Program-made: the position numbers and the translations under genes | The notes under the pieces: generated by a model | The model's database searches: none | What the model was told of the DNA's origin: nothing | What the model saw: the letters and a program-made list of their open reading frames with translations, nothing else | In this document: in pieces, positions 214-8,570 of the stretch | How the letters are laid out: each line of letters starts with the position of its first letter | Position numbering within the stretch: the first letter of the stretch is position 1 | NCBI GenBank assembly: GCA_003560355.1 | Contig: PWIP01000070.1 | Coordinates: 1 to 8,570, forward strand | Direction of reading: 5' to 3' | DNA from: Candidatus Dojkabacteria bacterium | Lineage (GTDB): Bacteria > Patescibacteriota > Dojkabacteria > SC72 > T1SED10-24 | Length of the DNA: 8,570 nt

Positions 214-2565
214 TCACATTCTCTCCAAAGGCTTAATTCTCAAAAGTGACAAACCATCCCTCAAAACCTCTCTAACAAAACAAACAACCAAAATTCTAGT
301 AGCCCTTTCAACACCCTTTGCTTCTAAAACCTTCTCCGTCTCGTACATTTGGCTAAAAAGCTTAGCTAAATCATACAAATATTCAGCCATTATACTAGGC
401 AAATAGTTATTAGCAGATGCAACAACCACATTAGGATAATCCAAGCACTTCAGTAGAATCTCTCTGTTAATATCCGTAAATTCAAACTCTTGAGTATTTT
501 CCTGCTCATCAACATTTTTTAATATATTACAAGCCCTAGCATATGCATACATAATGTAAGGACCACTCCTACCTGTAAACTTCACTGCTTTTTCTAAGTC
601 AAATTTCATATCTTTAAATGGATCAGAAGACAAAAAAGCATATTTCAAAGCTCCAACGGCCACATCTTCACTATCCGTAGCCTCCTGAACAATATCTAAA
701 AGTTCATCACCTGAAAGCTTTTCACCGTCTCTAGAAGACATTTTTTTACCATCTTTGTCAAACACATAGCCGTATGCCAAGTGATACAAATTATCAATTG
801 GCAAAAGCCCTAAAGAATCAATCAAGGAAAAAAGTCTTTGAAAATGAGTTATTTGTTCATTCCCCACAACCCAAATCGCCAACCAAGGATTAAATTTTTC
901 AACCTTAAGCTTAGTAAGGCCAAGATCTTGGGTATGATACAAAGAAGTTCCGTCGGATTTTAAAAGAACAACATCAGGCACACCATATTCATCTTCAAGT
1001 TTTGCAACAACAGCACCATCAGAAGTTTCTACTATTCTTTTACCATCTATATTATCCTTAACAATTTTTTTGCCAACTTCATATATTTCACTTTCAAACC
1101 ACATATGCCCCATTTCTTCCCCCAATCTCTTCATTGTTTCCTTGTGCCCTTCTAAAACCCAAGAAATTACTTTTTTCCACAAATCAATAATTTCAGGTTC
1201 ACCTTTTTCCCAATCAACTAACATCTTCCGAACTTCATTCTCAACTTCTTTACTTTCTTTAAACTTCTGATTTCCCAAAACATAATATTTATCTACAAAA
1301 TGATCTGGCTTCAAACCTTCTTTTTCAGGAGAAGAATCAGAGGCAAAATTTTTCAAGCCCCACATAGCTTTACATATTGGAAGCCCCTTATCATTAATTA
1401 TATTATCGTTGTAAACTTTAAAACCAAGCTTTTCAAAGATACTTTTTAGGGATTGTGCTAAAAAAACATTCAAAAGATGACCCACGTGCATAGCTTTATT
1501 AGGGTTTGCAGAAGGGCTTTCAATTAAAATAACTCTCTTCTTACCTACATTGCAAGAAGAGAATGATTCAAAATTTGAAATAGATTTTGATATATGCTTA
1601 AATAGGTAGTCATCAGAAAGGAAGAAATTTACGAATCCGTTCTTGGCAACTTCAATTTTGCTAAAAACAGAAGAAACCCTCGTTTCACCAGCCAGTTTCA
1701 CGGATACTTCTTCGCTTACTCCCGACGTTTTTTTATTTAAGGCTTTTGACACCTCAAAAGCGATATTTGTTGAAAAATGACCAAATTTCAAATTTGGAGA
1801 TTTGAACAAAATCGTTTTGTTCTCAAAGTTAAAATCAGGATAAATCTCCTGCAAAATCCCTACGAGCAAGGCGTTTAACTCATGTTGCAAGGTGTTTTCA
1901 TTAACAAAACCAAGAGATTTTCCTCTTCTTTTTTTCAAACCTTTCTCCCCTTTAGATTTTATTTGTGTTAATTTTTTTAGTTCAGAAACTACGTCTAAAC
2001 TTTCATCTATACGTTTTACCCTAAAATCTATTTCTACCGGACTCTTTTTATGCACTATCCACTCACCTCCCAAGAAACCTTTCGCCTCTTTGGCAAATCC
2101 CTCAGCTAACTGACAAAGACTCTCCGAATCTTGCTTTAAACCTAGAAAACAAACAAAAGCATTTTTTGACTCACTGTCAATTTTTATCCTCTCTCCTTGA
2201 ACAAAACCATCAAACCTATGGGTCACAGAGTGTTCATCAAGAAAAACCTTTTCTCCCTTCTTGCAAAATTCCACATCTTTACCTCCAGAAGGCAAAAAAG
2301 GCTTTTCTTCTTTCAAAACATCTAACTTTAAATCCCCAAAAACCTTGTCTAAATCTGCATAAATCCCATCAATGTTATTTTCTAAAACAAAAACATTAAA
2401 AAAATTAACAAACGGATTAATATTAGGAAGTTTCTTTTTCCCTTTCAGTTTTTCTAATTTCAATACAATATCACGACTCTTTGGAGTTCTGTTATTAATA
2501 CCCTTTGCCACAACAAAACAAAAGGAATAATCTTTTAAAAATTCTTCTGCTATTTCAAACTTCAT
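214..2565 (-). CDS. argS: Arginyl-tRNA synthetase with N-terminal B3/4-like domain
   Basis: Class I synthetase that charges tRNA-Arg with arginine in the cytoplasm. Numbered from the ATG at 2565 (783 residues), the synthetase part runs from about 224 to the end: the ArgRS N-terminal additional domain (224-328, with GHFSTNIAFEVSKAL and GFVNFFLS), the HIGH box as HVGH (360-363), VVGNEQITHF (566-575), the KMSKS box as KMSSR (608-612), and a C-terminal DALR-type anticodon-binding domain (from about 666, GRSGPYIMYAYAR, ending in PLERM). That part alone is about 560 residues, the usual ArgRS size. The first 190 or so residues are extra and resemble the B3/4 domain (SRD at 30-32, LPNINPFV at 46-53, DLDKVFGD at 71-78, HRF at 116-118, GERIKI at 124-129, KNAFVCF at 134-140). 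A lysine-rich linker (about 196-217) joins the halves. No methionine occurs between residues 1 and 358, so there is no internal AUG for a separate ArgRS. Start choice: reading further upstream enters the tRNA gene. ATG 2574 is the alternative; M-K-F-x-I at 2565 resembles the start of stand-alone B3/4 proteins as I remember them. No Shine-Dalgarno sequence is seen at either. Confidence 0.95.
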   Translation of the reverse strand: MKFEIAEEFLKDYSFCFVVAKGINNRTPKSRDIVLKLEKLKGKKKLPNINPFVNFFNVFVLENNIDGIYADLDKVFGDLKLDVLKEEKPFLPSGGKDVEFCKKGEKVFLDEHSVTHRFDGFVQGERIKIDSESKNAFVCFLGLKQDSESLCQLAEGFAKEAKGFLGGEWIVHKKSPVEIDFRVKRIDESLDVVSELKKLTQIKSKGEKGLKKRRGKSLGFVNENTLQHELNALLVGILQEIYPDFNFENKTILFKSPNLKFGHFSTNIAFEVSKALNKKTSGVSEEVSVKLAGETRVSSVFSKIEVAKNGFVNFFLSDDYLFKHISKSISNFESFSSCNVGKKRVILIESPSANPNKAMHVGHLLNVFLAQSLKSIFEKLGFKVYNDNIINDKGLPICKAMWGLKNFASDSSPEKEGLKPDHFVDKYYVLGNQKFKESKEVENEVRKMLVDWEKGEPEIIDLWKKVISWVLEGHKETMKRLGEEMGHMWFESEIYEVGKKIVKDNIDGKRIVETSDGAVVAKLEDEYGVPDVVLLKSDGTSLYHTQDLGLTKLKVEKFNPWLAIWVVGNEQITHFQRLFSLIDSLGLLPIDNLYHLAYGYVFDKDGKKMSSRDGEKLSGDELLDIVQEATDSEDVAVGALKYAFLSSDPFKDMKFDLEKAVKFTGRSGPYIMYAYARACNILKNVDEQENTQEFEFTDINREILLKCLDYPNVVVASANNYLPSIMAEYLYDLAKLFSQMYETEKVLEAKGVERATRILVVCFVREVLRDGLSLLRIKPLERM

Positions 2566-2589: not shown

Positions 2590-2663
2590 CACACCCAGAG
2601 GGATTCGAACCCCCAACCTTCGGTTCCGAAGACCGACGCTCTATCCAGTTGAGCTATGGGTGC
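2590..2663 (-). tRNA. tRNA-Arg, anticodon UCG
   Basis: A full cloverleaf of 74 nt can be folded. The acceptor stem is GCACCCA with TGGGTGT (the first pair is G1-U72), the D stem is GCTC/GAGC, the anticodon stem TCGGT/ACCGA with loop CTTCGGA, the T stem GGGGG/CCCTC with loop TTCGAAT, and the discriminator is G73. The anticodon TCG (U34 C35 G36) reads CGA and, by wobble, CGG as arginine. A20 is present in the D loop and C35/G36 in the anticodon, which are known bacterial arginine identity elements. CCA is not encoded (TGT follows G73), so it must be added by a nucleotidyltransferase. The gene lies directly upstream of argS in the same direction, behind its own promoter. Confidence 0.97.
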
Positions 2664-2698: not shown

Positions 2699-3517
2699 TC
2701 AAAAAGTTTCCAACTCAACTTTTAATATATCCCTAATATTTTCCCCTAAATTTCTTGCAAAACCAACATCTTCAACAAAGTTTTCCAAATCAAAAGCTAT
2801 ACTTTTTGTATCAACATTATCTATTTTCTCCAAAAGCCTTAACTTCAATTCTTCTTTACTCAAAACATCTTTCAAGCAATCATAGTTTGGCTCAACATTG
2901 TTTTGTAAAAACCACATCAAATCAAAAAAATCTCTACCTTTTACCTGCGTTAAAACATTTCCTTTTTTGTCTTTTTTCTGCCAACTCCTATTTAAAACAG
3001 CCAATATTTTAGTTGACATCAAAGTAGATAGATCAAAAGTCTTTAATAGTACAGAGCGATTGAATTTAAAAAGAGGTTTAAATTCTTTCTTAAAATTTTT
3101 ACAAAATCCAAACTCAGAGAATATTTCCAATTTAACAAAAAGAACATTTGAACCCCCCTTCTCTTCTGTGAGTCCTAATTCTTTTAAAATTGGAAATTTA
3201 AAATATATCCTGGATTTTTGTATCTTAACACCTATTTCCAAGTCTAAACTTTTTCCCAAAAAAGCTTTAACATCGCTAGCTAAAATTTCCATATTTGTAT
3301 TACCTTTTTCATCCACAAAATCCAAATCTTCAGAAAGTCTAGGTAAATTGTAGCATAAAGCTAAACAAGTACCTCCATAGAAAAAAAGATTATTGTATTT
3401 TTTAGAAGAATAGATATATTCTAAAATTAAAACCTGTAAATACTGTCTTAGTAAGTTACGTACGTAAAAATGAGGCCTTTCAGGATTATCCTCAACTATT
3501 TTTTTCGATATTTCCAT
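2699..3517 (-). CDS. AbiEii/AbiGii-family nucleotidyltransferase toxin
   Basis: Predicted toxin of an AbiE (type IV) toxin-antitoxin or abortive-infection pair, 272 residues from the ATG at 3517. The nucleotidyltransferase motifs are visible: GGTCLAL at 48-54 followed by RLSEDLDF at 60-67 (S62, D64, D66, the metal-binding DxD), VKLE at 128-131, K170 and R177 in the STKILAVLNR helix, and KGRDFFDL at 193-200 (R195, D196, D199). Known members transfer nucleotides, at least some of them to RNA including tRNA, and stop growth; the target here is not known. The start was chosen at ATG 3517 because AGAAGG (3529-3524) lies 6 bases upstream; the TTG at 3523-3521 would directly abut that site. The antitoxin's stop codon is only 2 bases before this ATG, so the two are probably translationally coupled. 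All motifs are intact and no frameshift is seen. Confidence 0.88.
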   Translation of the reverse strand: MEISKKIVEDNPERPHFYVRNLLRQYLQVLILEYIYSSKKYNNLFFYGGTCLALCYNLPRLSEDLDFVDEKGNTNMEILASDVKAFLGKSLDLEIGVKIQKSRIYFKFPILKELGLTEEKGGSNVLFVKLEIFSEFGFCKNFKKEFKPLFKFNRSVLLKTFDLSTLMSTKILAVLNRSWQKKDKKGNVLTQVKGRDFFDLMWFLQNNVEPNYDCLKDVLSKEELKLRLLEKIDNVDTKSIAFDLENFVEDVGFARNLGENIRDILKVELETF

Positions 3518-3519
3518 TT

Positions 3520-4164
3520 TCAACCTTCTTTTAAGAATTTAAATATATCTTCCATTCTTTTGTCTTTTTTCAAGCTAACATACTCTCCAAACTCTTCTAT
3601 ATCCTCACTACCTACCTGCTCCATATTTAACCTTAAAGATTTGAAATAGTTTTTACTAATTAACATACTTTTTCTTAAATACAAAAAGTCAAAAAGAGCT
3701 TTTGCAAGAGTAGCTTTGTATATTAAAAAGTTGTTTTTTTTAATTAATTTAAAACCTGTAAAAAGTTCCTTTTTAATATTATGGTAATGGAAAACACCCA
3801 AATTATTTTTAAATTTCGTTGTTTTTTTTGTACTAATTGCTGAAAAACCAAAAGAAGATTCACTCAAAACATTATACTCATTCAAAACATATTCTAAACT
3901 TAAATATGACGGAAAGTACAAAGTACTAGAAAGAAATTCTAAATAGCTATTCCAGGAATTTTTTCTTCTCATTTCTTCCAAAAAGTAAGAAGAAACATAT
4001 ACTCCTCTTTTTAAAGAAACTACTTTTTCTTTTGATTTAAGTCTGGAAAGAATGATTTTTAAATAATAATCTTCAATATCTAAACTCTGTAAAGTTTGCA
4101 AAGAGAAAAAGGGCATTTCTTTAATTATTCTTTCAACTTCTTTTGTCTTAGGAATATTTTCCAT
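3520..4164 (-). CDS. AbiEi-family antitoxin / transcriptional autoregulator
   Basis: Predicted antitoxin of the AbiE pair, 214 residues from the ATG at 4164. Residues 17-58 look like the N-terminal winged helix-turn-helix of AbiEi proteins (FSLQTLQSLDI, then LKRGVYVSS as the wing end). The following part has the family's SLEYVLNEYNVLSES (89-103) and the ATLAKALFDFLYLRK helix (151-165), matching the usual pattern before the C-terminal antitoxin part. Characterised AbiEi proteins repress their own promoter through inverted repeats and neutralise AbiEii without direct tight binding. A frame extension to the TTG at 4203 would run through the -10 box and is rejected. AGAG 3 bases upstream of the ATG is at best a weak ribosome-binding site. 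The gene is very AT-rich (16 of 60 bases G+C in the row 3661-3720), compared with 24 of 60 in an argS row (901-960), which may mean recent acquisition. Confidence 0.82.
   Translation of the reverse strand: MENIPKTKEVERIIKEMPFFSLQTLQSLDIEDYYLKIILSRLKSKEKVVSLKRGVYVSSYFLEEMRRKNSWNSYLEFLSSTLYFPSYLSLEYVLNEYNVLSESSFGFSAISTKKTTKFKNNLGVFHYHNIKKELFTGFKLIKKNNFLIYKATLAKALFDFLYLRKSMLISKNYFKSLRLNMEQVGSEDIEEFGEYVSLKKDKRMEDIFKFLKEG
3524..3529 (-). promoter_or_regulatory. Ribosome-binding site deciding the AbiEii start
   Basis: AGAAGG on the minus strand lies within the last codons of the antitoxin gene, 6 bases before ATG 3517. It supports the ATG over the TTG at 3523-3521 and suggests coupled translation. 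Confidence 0.7.
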
Positions 4165-4199: not shown

Positions 4200-4220
4200 C
4201 CAAAAGAAACAGAAGGTCAA
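4192..4220 (-). promoter_or_regulatory. Sigma70-type promoter of the AbiE pair
   Basis: The minus strand has TTGACC (-35, 4220-4215), a 17-bp spacer, and TACAAT (-10, 4197-4192); each hexamer has one mismatch to consensus. Predicted start of transcription is near 4185, about 20 nt before ATG 4164. The nrdG stop codon TGA (4219-4217) lies inside the -35 hexamer, so the promoter is embedded in the end of the upstream gene and gives the toxin-antitoxin pair transcription independent of the nrd operon. Confidence 0.75.
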
Positions 4221-4912
4221 CCTACATTCTTTATATTTACATTCTCAATGTATTTTTCAAGAATTTTCTGAAACTTTTCCAACTCTTTCTTAGAAAATTC
4301 ATTCTCTTTAGTAAATTCCGAAGAAATACTCTTGCTATATTTGAAATTCTGCAAAGAAAAATTCTCAATTCCTTTCAAAAGCTTCCCAATATTCTCTATA
4401 CTCTCCTTAGTATGCATACCATTAACGACTGTTGTTCTGAATTCATAATCTACATTAGAATTTTTAATTAACTCAATACTCTTTGATATTTTTCCTACGC
4501 CATTAAAACCTCCTGTAGTACCCTCATATTCTTCAAAAGAAGATTTGACGTCCATAGCTATGTAATCTGTAAGTTTTTCCTTCAAAAGCTTTTGTAGGAT
4601 TTCTGGAAAAGATCCATTTGTATCAATTTTTACTAAAAAATCTTCTTTCTTAATTTTTTTACAAAAAGAAACTATGTCTTTTTGCAAACAAGGCTCTCCC
4701 CCAGTTATTACCACACCATCTAACATTGTTTTTCTTTTTTTTAAAAAGTTAAAAAATTTTTCTTCTGGAATTGTTTCATTCGGAGGTTTAACGACTAATT
4801 CTGGATTATGACAAAAAGGACAACGAAAATTACAACCATGGGTAAAAACCGTACAAGCAATCTTATTTGGATAATCTATCAAGGTCGTTTTTTGTAACCC
4901 GGCAATAACCAT
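4217..4912 (-). CDS. nrdG: Anaerobic ribonucleotide reductase activating protein (radical SAM)
   Basis: Activase that uses a 4Fe-4S cluster and S-adenosylmethionine to make the glycyl radical on class III reductase; cytoplasmic and oxygen-sensitive. The 231-residue protein has the radical-SAM cluster motif CxxxCxxC at C27, C31 and C34 within HGCNFRCPFCHN, the SAM-contacting TGGEP at 70-74, and IDTNG at 96-100. The opening GLQKTTLIDYPNKIACTVF is typical of the longer NrdG2-type activases (about 190-240 residues) rather than the short E. coli type. The start ATG is 4 bases after the nrdD copy A stop, with AAGG 9 bases upstream. As the only activase in the window, it probably serves both reductases. 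Its last codons carry the AbiE promoter. Confidence 0.93.
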   Translation of the reverse strand: MVIAGLQKTTLIDYPNKIACTVFTHGCNFRCPFCHNPELVVKPPNETIPEEKFFNFLKKRKTMLDGVVITGGEPCLQKDIVSFCKKIKKEDFLVKIDTNGSFPEILQKLLKEKLTDYIAMDVKSSFEEYEGTTGGFNGVGKISKSIELIKNSNVDYEFRTTVVNGMHTKESIENIGKLLKGIENFSLQNFKYSKSISSEFTKENEFSKKELEKFQKILEKYIENVNIKNVG

Positions 4913-4916
4913 AATT

Positions 4917-6728
4917 TTAAACCTTGTAATTTTTCCTAACTTCCCATTCTGCTTTCTTCCCCTTATTCCAACATTTTATGGGGCTAATATATCCAACCAC
5001 CCTAGAATATACTTCGCATTTTACATTACAAGTATCACAATATTCATGTTCTCCTTTCATATATCCATGTTCTGGACAAATACTAAAGGTCGGTGTTATT
5101 GAAAAATATGGCATTTTGTAATTTTCAGCAATTTTTTTTACTAACTTTTTCGTTGCACACATAGATGGCATTTTTTCTCCAACAAACACATGGAAGACTG
5201 TTCCTCCTGTATATTTACACTGGATTTCATCTTGATTTTGCAAAGCTTCACAAACATCATCAGTAGCATCTACTGGAAGCTGTGTTGAATTTGAATAGAA
5301 TGGGTCTCCATTTGTGTTTGCAACTATGATATCAGGATACTTTTTCTTGTCTATCCTTGCAAAACGATATGACGTGCTTTCAGCTGGAGTGGCTTCAAGA
5401 TTAAAAAGAACACCCGTTTCTTTCTGATACTGTTGCATTACATCTCGCATATAATCAAGGACCTCTAGCGTGAAGTCTTTGCCCTCTTTGCTCAAAAGGT
5501 TTTTATCCATAAAATTAAGAAGAGCCTCATTCATACCATTAACGCCAATTGTATTAAAGTGGTTACTCCAATATTTTCCAAATCTTTTTTTAATTCCAGA
5601 AAGATAATATCTACAATATGGATAAAGGCCTCGTTCTGTTGTATATTCAATAGCTTCTCTTTTAATAACTAGGCTTTCTTTTGCTAAATCCATATTTTCT
5701 TTTAACTTTTTGAAAAATTCTTCCTTACTCTTTGCAAGATACCCAATCCTAGGTAAGTTAATCGTCACAATCCCTATACTCCCCGTCAAAGGGTCAGAAC
5801 CAAAAAGTCCACCCCCTTTTCTTCTAAGCTCCCTGTTATCAATTCTTAATCTACAGCACATTGACCTAACATCGTCCGGACTAATATCAGAATTAATGAA
5901 ATTGGAAAAGTAAGGAATTCCATATTTAGTAGTCATTTCCCAAATTGGATCCATCATTGGATCATCCCATTTTAAATCTTTTGTTAAATTATATGTTGGA
6001 ATTGGCCAAGTGAAAGGTCTCCCTGACATGTCTCCTTCCATCATAACTTCAGCGAAAGCTTTGTTAAACATATTCATTTCTTTCTGAAAATCTTTGTATT
6101 TTTCCTCTTTTACTTCGCCACCAATAATTACACCCTCTTTACCCAATGTACCACTAGGAGTAATATCCAAACTAATATTCGTAAATGGAGCTTGAAATAC
6201 TTTGTCTAAGGGTACATTCATATTAAAAACAAAATATTGCAAAAGTTGTTTTACCTGGTCATAGTTAAGACCATCGTAACGTATAAATGGAGCCATATAT
6301 GTATCAAAACTTGAAATAGCTTGAGCTCCCGCAGCTTCATGCCTTAAAAGAAAAAGAAGGTTTTTTACATGGTCAAGAGCTGAATGCAAGTGTTTAGCTG
6401 GAGTACATGCAACCTTACCATATACACCTGTATGGCCTTTCAAAAGAAAATCTCGCAAATCCCAACCTACACAATATGTTGAAATATATCCCAAATCATG
6501 TATATGTATATCCCCAGATTTATGAGCCTCCCCTATTTTCTTTGGATAGACTTTGTTTAACCAATAGTTTGATTGAGCTGTAGTAGCTATATGATTTGTA
6601 AGACCGTGAAGAGAATATGAAGAATTGCTGTTTTCTTTAACTCTCCAGTTACTCCCATTTATATAGTTTTCAATAATATCAATAGCATCTATACACGACT
6701 CTTTTGTTTTCCTATGGGTTTTAAACAT
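4917..6728 (-). CDS. nrdD: Class III (anaerobic) ribonucleoside-triphosphate reductase, copy A
   Basis: Reduces ribonucleotides to deoxyribonucleotides without oxygen, using a glycyl radical installed by NrdG. It has 603 residues and looks complete. Visible features are HIHD (75-78) and YCVGWDL (85-91, C86) in the substrate pocket, SSFDTYMAPFIRYDG (139-153), WPIPTYN (241-247), the cysteine pair C291-C292 in SMCCRLR (expected thiyl-radical region), GSIGIVTINLPRIGY (316-330), LEATPAES (444-451), a C-terminal metal-binding set C551, H554, C564, C567 (plus C571), and the glycyl-radical motif SRVVGY with G579. The protein starts directly at the catalytic domain, with no N-terminal ATP-cone, so the usual dATP-sensing module is absent. 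ATG 6728 has AGAAG 5 bases upstream, and copy B ends 18 bases before it. Confidence 0.95.
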   Translation of the reverse strand: MFKTHRKTKESCIDAIDIIENYINGSNWRVKENSNSSYSLHGLTNHIATTAQSNYWLNKVYPKKIGEAHKSGDIHIHDLGYISTYCVGWDLRDFLLKGHTGVYGKVACTPAKHLHSALDHVKNLLFLLRHEAAGAQAISSFDTYMAPFIRYDGLNYDQVKQLLQYFVFNMNVPLDKVFQAPFTNISLDITPSGTLGKEGVIIGGEVKEEKYKDFQKEMNMFNKAFAEVMMEGDMSGRPFTWPIPTYNLTKDLKWDDPMMDPIWEMTTKYGIPYFSNFINSDISPDDVRSMCCRLRIDNRELRRKGGGLFGSDPLTGSIGIVTINLPRIGYLAKSKEEFFKKLKENMDLAKESLVIKREAIEYTTERGLYPYCRYYLSGIKKRFGKYWSNHFNTIGVNGMNEALLNFMDKNLLSKEGKDFTLEVLDYMRDVMQQYQKETGVLFNLEATPAESTSYRFARIDKKKYPDIIVANTNGDPFYSNSTQLPVDATDDVCEALQNQDEIQCKYTGGTVFHVFVGEKMPSMCATKKLVKKIAENYKMPYFSITPTFSICPEHGYMKGEHEYCDTCNVKCEVYSRVVGYISPIKCWNKGKKAEWEVRKNYKV

Positions 6729-6746
6729 ATTGTCTTCTACAAAAAC

Positions 6747-8570
6747 TTAAGTACAGAATTCTTTACGATCTTTAAATTCTGATTGCTTACCTGAATTCCA
6801 TCTCTGCACAGGAGCTATTTTACCTACAACCCTACTGTAAACCAAAGCATCTTTTTTACAAACAGGACATTTAAAATGCTCCCCTGAAAGATATCCATGA
6901 GTTTGACAAACACTAAAGGTGGGAGTAAGAGTTATGTAAGGAAGTTTGTAACCTGACGTTATCTTCTTAATTAAAGCCTTAGTTTCTTCCACTCCACTTA
7001 ATCTTTCACCTAAAAATGCATGAAAAACTGTCCCCCCAGTATATTTACTCTGCAATTCATCTTGCAAATCCAATGCCTCAAAAATATCATCTGTATAATT
7101 TACAGGAAGTTGCGTTGAATTCGTATAGTAAGGATCAGCACCACATTTTTTCACTTCCTTTTCATTCGCGACAATAATTTCTGGATAAAGTTCTTTGTCT
7201 TTTTTAGCCATTGAAAAAGAAGTTCCTTCTGCTGGAGATGCTTCTAAATTGTAAAGTTCGTCACTTTCTTCTTGATACTGTAACAATTTCTTATTCATGA
7301 AACTTAAAACTTCATTAGCAAATTTCTGCCCTTCTTTTGAGGCAATATCTTTATCAAAAAAGTTCAAACAGGCTTCATTCATACCAATAATTCCAATAGT
7401 ACTAAAGTGATTTGTCCAATACTTTCCTGTTTTTTCTTTAACCTGACGTAAGTAAAATTTAGAATATGGATACAGACCTTTCTCCGTAAAGTCTTCAACT
7501 AAATTTCGTCTAAGAGTTAGGGCGTTACGACTTACTTTCATAAGGTATTCAAGGCGTTTAAAAAACTCCTCCTTGTTTCCTTTAGTCAAAAAACCTATCC
7601 TTGGTAAGTTAATCGTTGTATAACCAATACTACCAGTCAAAGGATTCGCCCCAAAAAAGCCACCACCCCTTTTATGCAATTGCCTATTATCTATTCTCAA
7701 TCTACAACACATAGACCTTGCATCTTCAGGACTCATATCACTATTAACAAAATTCGCAAAGTAAGGAATTCCATATTTGGCTGTCATTTCCCAAATACCA
7801 TCATATGATTTGTTAGCCCAATCAAAATCTTTTGATATATTGTAAGTAGGGATTGGAAAAGTAAACGCCCTACCCTTTGCATCTCCCTCAATATATACCT
7901 CGGCCAAAGCCTTGTTAAACATATCCATCTCCTCTTGGTAATCTCCATATTTTTCTTTTTGCAACTTACCCCCTATTATCACAGGCTGGTCTTTCATATC
8001 CTCAGGCACCTTTAAATCCAAAGTTATATTGGAAAAAACAACCTGTCCACCAGATTTCGTAGGCATATTCATGTTGTAAACAAAAGACTGCAAAGCCTGT
8101 TTTACTTTTTCAAAATCTAAATCATCATAACGAATGAATGGAGCCATATATGTATCAAGACTAGATACCGCAACAGCACCATCTGGTGCTTCATTAGTCA
8201 GTGTGTACAAAAAATTCATTAATTGTCCAAGAGCTACTCCAAAGTGTTTTGGAGGTTTGCACTCAACATTACCAGCAACACCTTTAAAGCCAACAAGAAG
8301 TAAATCTTGTAAATCCCAACCAACACAATATGCACTAATGGAAGAACTTTTATGAATATGGAAATCCTTGTTATCATGCAACCTCCTCATTTCACCTGTA
8401 TATACCTCATTCATCCAATACTTTTCAGAAATTTCATTAACAATATTCTTGTACATACCCTGAAGGTGATAGTCAATCGAGGAATCAATATTAATTTTCC
8501 AATCTTTCTTTCCAACATATGAATTAATTTTTACCCCAACATCAAGCAAATTATTAATATTTCTAGCTCG
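6747..8570 (-). CDS. nrdD: Class III (anaerobic) ribonucleoside-triphosphate reductase, copy B, 5' partial
   Basis: Second class III reductase. The frame is open to the window end (residues RARNINN precede LLDVGV), so the N-terminus is missing; a TTG at 8549-8547 is an unlikely start, with no ribosome-binding site. Numbered from that TTG, it has HIHK (64-67), YCVGWDL (74-80), SSLDTYMAPFIRYDD (129-143), FPIPTYN (231-237), C281-C282 in SMCCRLR, NLPRIGF (314-320), LEASPAEG (435-442), metal ligands C548, H551, C561 and C564, and the glycyl-radical motif SRVVGK with G576. By eye it shares more than half its residues with copy A, with long identical blocks, so it is a paralogue. Differences include HIHK for HIHD, K for Y after the radical glycine, and a one-residue insertion in the EAPDGAVAV loop (EAAGAQAI in copy A). 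Whether an ATP-cone lies upstream cannot be seen. Confidence 0.93.
   Translation of the reverse strand, partial: RARNINNLLDVGVKINSYVGKKDWKINIDSSIDYHLQGMYKNIVNEISEKYWMNEVYTGEMRRLHDNKDFHIHKSSSISAYCVGWDLQDLLLVGFKGVAGNVECKPPKHFGVALGQLMNFLYTLTNEAPDGAVAVSSLDTYMAPFIRYDDLDFEKVKQALQSFVYNMNMPTKSGGQVVFSNITLDLKVPEDMKDQPVIIGGKLQKEKYGDYQEEMDMFNKALAEVYIEGDAKGRAFTFPIPTYNISKDFDWANKSYDGIWEMTAKYGIPYFANFVNSDMSPEDARSMCCRLRIDNRQLHKRGGGFFGANPLTGSIGYTTINLPRIGFLTKGNKEEFFKRLEYLMKVSRNALTLRRNLVEDFTEKGLYPYSKFYLRQVKEKTGKYWTNHFSTIGIIGMNEACLNFFDKDIASKEGQKFANEVLSFMNKKLLQYQEESDELYNLEASPAEGTSFSMAKKDKELYPEIIVANEKEVKKCGADPYYTNSTQLPVNYTDDIFEALDLQDELQSKYTGGTVFHAFLGERLSGVEETKALIKKITSGYKLPYITLTPTFSVCQTHGYLSGEHFKCPVCKKDALVYSRVVGKIAPVQRWNSGKQSEFKDRKEFCT

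Follow-up and report, generated by a model that had tools for sequence, protein, structure and literature searches.

The stretch of DNA analyzed here, referred to as the window, comprises positions 1 to 8,570 of contig PWIP01000070.1 (assembly GCA_003560355.1) from a member of the class Dojkabacteria, and carries on its minus strand (214–2574) a gene for an arginyl-tRNA synthetase (ArgRS) whose N-terminus is extended by a B3/4 domain of the CtdA type. This fusion is real and conserved. Judging from sequence and model, the likeliest function of the extra domain is proofreading of tRNA-Arg in cis, although we are less sure of this for the window clade (i.e., the window's domain and its closest relatives) than for ArgRS-fused relatives with the canonical CtdA residues. 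Taken specifically, we rate as about even the chances that the window's domain is a cis-acting proofreading site with a re-tuned pocket.

A CtdA-type B3/4 domain within an ArgRS chain

The N-terminal domain covers approximately residues 4–185 (2020–2565, minus strand), and its residues 18–143 (2146–2523) match the Pfam profile B3_4 (PF03483) with 42.4 bits over a cut-off of 29.3, the E-value being 7.1e-11 for the isolated N-terminus and 9.4e-10 within the whole protein. An AlphaFold2 model predicts a B3/4 fold for this domain, which Foldseek and VIA-align relate to CtdA and to the editing domain of the phenylalanyl-tRNA synthetase (PheRS) beta subunit, with CtdA as the best match by both sequence and fold. 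By profile, sequence, and predicted fold, this is a B3/4 domain of the CtdA type, and an extra domain of a known editing fold is present within the ArgRS chain. An earlier note on this DNA had proposed a B3/4-like domain here and suggested a profile search, a structural comparison, and a search for the same architecture in relatives, all of which bear out its proposal, the extension being found in relatives as well (see below). An origin from PheRS was rejected, as canonical ArgRS-fused domains match CtdA at 3e-24 versus PheRS at 0.0018, and the PheT domains form a separate branch of the domain tree.

The frame runs for 786 codons plus a stop from ATG 2574 or for 783 from ATG 2565, of which the latter appears the likelier start because nine of ten aligned relatives begin at its residue. 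That uninterrupted 783-codon frame had been read correctly in the earlier note, as had the complete ArgRS in its C-terminal part, while the first methionine, placed there no earlier than residue 358, is off by one (359 of 783, or 362 of 786, past the start region). In the 786-residue numbering used throughout, the complete ArgRS occupies residues 233–786 (Pfam PF03485, PF00750, and PF05746; NCBIfam argS at 365.9 bits, with a cut-off of 261.65). Arranged along the minus strand are a basic linker between the domains (residues 207–226; 1897–1956), with a conserved GxxGxKKR and a low to middling model confidence, and then the Pfam domains Arg_tRNA_synt_N (233–319; 1618–1878), catalytic tRNA-synt_1d (341–629; 688–1554), and anticodon-binding DALR_1 (674–786; 217–555). 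Read off the sequence, the HIGH-like motif is HVGH (363–366; 1477–1488) and the KMSKS-like motif is KMSSR (611–615; 730–744). By protein search, the window genome (487 kb in 93 contigs, 68.3% complete) has one ArgRS, the fused one, while another PF00750 match scores below the cut-off; its two B3_4 matches are the fused ArgRS and a PheT.

CtdA itself, a B3/4 protein that stands alone, deacylates canavanyl-tRNA-Arg in trans, which was reported as the first editing activity towards tRNA-Arg (PMC10018355). In its host, the ArgRS prefers arginine over canavanine only 12.9-fold, and in a deletion strain given canavanine approximately 5.6% of the detected peptides were canavanylated, as against 0.3% in the wild type (PMC10018355). 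A 2024 review, in its accessible portion, counts CtdA among the free-standing deacylases and as related to PheRS (PMC11415595). Unlike CtdA (PDB 9f7e and 9mkl), the window domain is fused to ArgRS and belongs to a clade with changed pocket residues, and it is some 48 residues shorter than its canonical fused relatives. The arginine analogue that the earlier note had envisaged as a substrate fits this nearest solved relative, which went unnamed there. The window domain, by contrast, has lost residues common to CtdA and 26 of the 27 other ArgRS-fused domains, so that any activity of its own may have another substrate. The PheRS beta B3/4 domain, in turn, belongs to a class II synthetase, edits Tyr-tRNA-Phe, and matches the window domain weakly by sequence.

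Conservation, selection, and spread of the ArgRS fusion

Searching residues 1–260 against 5.8 billion proteins gave 11 proteins, including the window's own. The ten others (770–825 residues, with 37–69% identity over residues 1–260) all have ArgRS domains behind the extension, and a precomputed Pfam list has B3_4 in only eight of the 11. Two metagenome-assembled genomes (MAGs) of the same genus (SLHS01 and SLSN01) are deposited as Patescibacteria group bacterium isolates CSSed165cm_164 and _609, names that we take to denote soda-lake sediment MAGs; here, L066 has an intact fusion, while that of L063/L067 spans two contig ends. For three pairs, the ratio of nonsynonymous to synonymous substitution rates (dN/dS; NG86) was 0.26, 0.16, and 0.22 in the N-terminal domain and 0.084–0.094 in the catalytic part, these values being rough for pairs that include the window (dS above 1). 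The N-terminal domain is under purifying selection in the window clade. As a separate observation, P0006 and P0007 are nearly identical over their first ~358 residues and sharply divergent in the remainder, which reflects either recombination between ArgRS genes or a chimeric contig.

Profile searches with PF03483 and PF00750 over 85 genomes of the class, with candidate frames read, place a B3/4-ArgRS fusion in at least 14 of them, and ArgRS catalytic domains above cut-off in 76. Both profiles match in one frame in 11 of the 14 (G000, G006, G009, G011, G018, G021, G042, G055, G007, G049, and G077), where the fusions of G007, G049, and G077 are cut at contig ends and the B3_4 match of G077 is below cut-off; those of G001 and G003 were recognized by homology to the window domain without a Pfam match, and that of G002 is split over contigs. 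Moreover, a protein search with the N-terminal part of L041 (identical to P0013) returned 18 proteins, namely 17 ArgRS fusions (the query included) and one fusion to a lysyl-tRNA synthetase (LysRS). The earlier note pointed to no described ArgRS of this form; indeed, we found no description of an ArgRS-B3/4 fusion in the open-licence PubMed Central literature (subscription journals lie outside this scope, and "B3/4" itself is not a searchable term), nor is one mentioned in the accessible portions of PMC9437257 and PMC6744442, but the window's protein is no one-off.

In a quick-search tree of 76 ArgRS rows (L002, L066, and L067 left out), of which 40 are fused, the fused state needs nine changes, with at least seven forced by well-supported branches, and a single gain without loss is ruled out on this tree. 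One protein of 1124 residues (P0014) has two different B3/4 domains in tandem (residues 20–223 and 284–493), and the genome G003 encodes both an ArgRS whose B3/4 extension is eroded (L076) and an unfused, long-branched one (L082).

Remodelling of the pocket region

Around the PheRS editing site, the accessible text of PMC3275996 names His261, Asn250, Thr249, Glu323, and Glu334, describes the triad as more positional than catalytic, and gives His261 as Gly in archaeal and eukaryotic PheRS, while an excerpt of PMC4066437 reports that changes at Gly318 of E. coli PheRS lower editing more than 70-fold. In the alignment, CtdA E118 falls two positions beyond PheRS His261 (T. thermophilus; His265 in E. 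coli), and CtdA Q173 aligns with Gly318. By alignment, the varying columns are pocket positions, because they fall at or near these named editing residues.

Two residues of the window domain are retained: N60 (2395–2397, minus strand, as are the codons below), in the column of CtdA N105 and, going by the excerpted PMC3275996, T. thermophilus PheRS Asn250, is kept in 10 of 11 aligned proteins, and R129 (2188–2190), in the column of CtdA R176, in 13 of 13 clade rows. CtdA E118 is replaced by A73 (2356–2358), W171-R172-Q173 by F124-V125-Q126, and T177 by I130, so that Q126 is the sole one of these pocket-region residues to be kept, and W169 is changed as well. In the alignment, CtdA PVGGEN becomes DGIYAD, and CtdA TCRRWNWRQGVRT becomes THRFDGFVQGERI, while PheRS His261 corresponds to I71. 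Across the window clade, the changes are E118 to A or L, C166 to H, and T177 to V or I, with the histidine at the C166 column (H119; 2218–2220) invariant in 13 of 13 rows. Invariant in the 11 aligned clade proteins are H115, H119, PFLP (92–95), and F103-C104. The distance from the first strand to the NINP motif is 25 residues in the window domain, 71–77 in canonical ArgRS fusions, and 49 in P0012. From its sequence, the window domain is a descendant of the ArgRS type with a remodelled pocket.

The same module on other synthetases

Besides PheT, the fetched B3/4 matches of the class, typed by NCBIfam or Pfam, sit on tryptophanyl- (TrpRS), tyrosyl- (TyrRS), and methionyl-tRNA synthetases (MetRS) and on LysRS of both classes. 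These are TrpRS L033 and the similar L035; TyrRS L040, L042, L046, L051, L055, L059, L069, L070, and, by eye, L062; class II LysRS L034 and L036–L039; class I LysRS L068; and MetRS L043, L050, L052, L053, L057, L060, and, by eye, L058. Eye or likeness alone gave the type of L062 (no NCBIfam match at 1e-40), L058, L123, L119 (like L117), and L121 (like P0029), and likeness that of L035 (Pfam W/Y family, like L033) and L042 (Pfam W/Y family plus a TyrRS C-terminal domain). The class also has three short stand-alone B3/4 proteins (L072, cut at a contig end, L073, and L074), and L056 joins B3/4 to a tRNA-binding part like the PheT N-terminus; the weak partial match G077:C5 (L075, below cut-off) was not used.

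Searched against 286 genomes of the phylum, a profile of the class's B3/4 domains matched 30, five of them from the class, a lower bound given the strict threshold (E 1e-15). Fusions outside the class involve ArgRS (L117, L119, L121, and L128), class II LysRS (L116, L118, and L120), class I LysRS (L122–L125), TrpRS (L126), and TyrRS (L127), and L129 and L130 are PheT-like. Among the fetched matches, none is fused to a Val, Leu, Ile, Ala, Thr, or Pro synthetase. The Arg, Lys, Tyr, Trp, and Met synthetases are not known to have a standard post-transfer editing domain.

Some of these chains have further peculiarities. L033 (846–3632, minus strand) has two Pfam tRNA_edit domains beside its B3/4 domain, and L035, L042, and L126 have one each, so these TrpRS and TyrRS proteins would carry two kinds of editing domain in one chain. 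In class I LysRS, the B3/4 domain is C-terminal (L068, 1227–3527, plus strand; L122, L124, and L125). Class II LysRS L036 and L037 contain an HD-like stretch (HDIG just under cut-off), located between synthetase and B3/4 in L036 and after B3/4 in L037.

By sequence comparison, B3/4 domains appear to group largely by the amino acid of the synthetase. On a quick-search tree of 72 domains in 11 groups, with 24 of 69 inner branches open, 11 changes are needed (minimum 10), whereas shuffling gave a mean of 44.5 and a value as low in none of 200 trials. Here, the window clade is nested within the ArgRS-fused domains (support 99), and the class I LysRS domain of L068 groups with three class II LysRS domains (support 97) though the two synthetases are unrelated. 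The pattern is not entirely clean, since the ArgRS domains need two changes and the LysRS P0030 domain sits with the stand-alone ones; in addition, the first B3/4 domain of P0014 and the P0024 domain fall among ArgRS-type domains other than those expected from their ArgRS backbones, consistent with module exchange. Nine duplicate or cut rows (L002, P0001, P0002, P0007, P0013, L064, L065, L066, and L071) were left out of the residue alignment, and these plus P0004, P0006, and all but six PheT rows were left out of the domain tree.

The residue occupying the E118 column tends to vary with the amino acid of the synthetase, as far as sequences can tell. It is E in both solved structures, in 26 of 27 ArgRS fusions outside the window clade, and in three of seven stand-alone proteins; H in 9/10 TyrRS and 7/7 MetRS; and F in 3/3 TrpRS, 5/5 class I LysRS, and 29/29 PheT. 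The nine class II LysRS have F (four), Y (three), or D (two), and the window clade has A (11) or L (two) in 13 rows from 11 distinct proteins. These counts do not add L121 (near P0029) or the PheT-like L129 and L130, and the cut fragment L131 was counted apart. A universal residue code was rejected on account of L127, L128, and the class II LysRS.

Relative to the open-licence literature searched, this wider picture of B3/4 on ArgRS, both LysRS classes, TyrRS, TrpRS, and MetRS is new. In a likeness, PheRS B2 on TyrRS and LysRS of the same phylum is also a PheRS-beta-related module on other synthetases in the candidate phyla radiation, but, going by the accessible part of PMC5370408, it is an RNA-binding OB fold rather than the B3/4 editing domain, and ArgRS is not involved. 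An artificial precedent is the TyrRS engineered with a PheRS editing module (PMC3275996, as excerpted), i.e., a B3/4 module on a synthetase having none; that one is man-made, whereas the fusions here are natural and involve several synthetases.

Proposed function and alternatives

A role in proofreading is favoured because profile, sequence, and predicted fold each point to CtdA and to the editing domain of PheRS, because CtdA acts on tRNA-Arg (PMC10018355), and because the window clade nests within the ArgRS-fused domains. It is favoured further because the module sits beside tRNA_edit, a known editing family, on four proteins, because the E118-column residue tends to follow the amino acid, because unrelated class I and class II LysRS carry sister domains, and because, in the window clade, purifying selection acts on the domain and a distinct set of its residues is invariant. 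In such a scheme, the catalytic domain would attach a wrong amino acid (an analogue of arginine or some other ill-fitting residue) to tRNA-Arg, whose CCA end would then move from the synthetic site to the B3/4 pocket, where the ester would be cleaved and the tRNA-Arg cleared in cis. In canonical relatives, a pocket with CtdA E118 and the WRQ motif would act on canavanine-like residues, while the remodelled pocket of the window clade makes a different or broader substrate likely. Across the Patescibacteria, synthetases of Arg, Lys (both classes), Tyr, Trp, and Met seem to have acquired the same module on repeated occasions, with tuning to each. A bolder version of this, which we hold tentatively and at somewhat below even chances, is that these bacteria made the CtdA/B3/4 fold a general plug-in proofreading module, with one pocket residue tuned per amino acid (Arg having E, Met and Tyr having H, and Trp and class I Lys having F) and with the window clade as a re-tuned Arg version directed at a new non-cognate occupant of the arginine site.

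If so, bacteria with tiny genomes, perhaps expected to drop quality control, added it to ArgRS and five other synthetase kinds. The fusions would turn the fidelity of synthetases without editing domains into a set of testable proteins, provide a naturally occurring series from which to learn how a B3/4 pocket selects its amino acid, and supply ready-made editing modules for synthetase engineering.

Several observations weigh against proofreading. The window clade is without E118 and the W171-R172-Q173 motif, and its stretch from the first strand to the NINP motif has become shorter by ~48 residues. Compared with the catalytic part, the B3/4 domain is under selection that is looser by a factor of two to three, and in L076, of the same family, the extension has eroded further, without a Pfam B3_4 match. 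The domain is dispensable in ArgRS, because 36 of the 76 rows in the ArgRS tree are without it. Exceptions at the E118 column (F in ArgRS L128, Y in TyrRS L127, and F, Y, or D in class II LysRS) blur the pattern, which may reflect shared descent within each type.

The strongest competitor, which we judge possible though less probable than a re-tuned editing site, is that in the window clade the domain has been retired from editing and persists as a non-catalytic module, either structural or tRNA-binding, that increases the affinity for tRNA-Arg. Such a role is favoured because the canonical signature is lost and a relative (L076) shows erosion, whereas a re-tuned pocket is favoured because of the new invariants and purifying selection. 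In particular, the clade's own pocket-region invariants (H115, H119, PFLP 92–95, and F103-C104), together with the kept N60 and R129, suggest a pocket in use, and relatives of the same architecture keep the CtdA signature. That the domain has the very canavanyl-tRNA-Arg editing activity of CtdA, other residues having taken over from those lost, we regard as improbable: CtdA is its best match by sequence and fold, and the clade descends from ArgRS-fused domains that keep the CtdA residues, but E118, W169, W171, R172, and T177 are all changed, and scans of the window and five related loci turned up neither canavanine genes nor a guanidine riboswitch. Rfam at gathering thresholds gave 13 matches in these six sequences, all of them tRNAs, and no other RNA control element. 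A functionless extension, whether in decay, left over by accident, or created by misassembly, might be read from the erosion of L076 and from the 36 rows without the domain, but is very improbable with the extension in 10/10 other proteins, intact in L066 and at contig ends in L063/L067, a dN/dS of 0.16–0.26, and the ArgRS fusion in at least 14 genomes of the class.

Neighbouring genes

A tRNA-Arg(UCG) gene (2590–2663, minus strand), located 15 bases upstream of ATG 2574, encodes the likely substrate of the fused ArgRS, and relatives have the same neighbour. In the fetched flanks, tRNA-Arg lies upstream in eight of 17 fused loci having a 5' flank versus eight of 36 unfused loci; it is close by in the window, L066, L063, L076, L041, L044, and L047, ~340 bases away in L061, and absent from the fetched 5' flanks of L049, L065, L045, L048, L054, L117, L119, L121, and L128. 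Within the window's order, the counts are 8/10 fused and 8/10 unfused, and outside it 0/7 and 0/26; we dropped this linkage as evidence of the fusion's function, since it tracks the order and not the fusion. Upstream of argS, fused or unfused, that order has clusters of tRNA-Arg genes (UCG, frequently accompanied by GCG and UCU), as seen in the window, at L041, L044, L047, and L061, and at eight unfused loci. A tRNA-Trp gene lies upstream of the fused TrpRS L033.

Elsewhere in the window, also on the minus strand, an AbiEii-type toxin gene and an AbiEi-like partner (a weak match) form a type IV toxin-antitoxin pair directly upstream of the tRNA gene (2699–4164), and 4217–8549 holds two tandem genes for the anaerobic ribonucleotide reductase NrdD, followed by one for an NrdG2-type activase.
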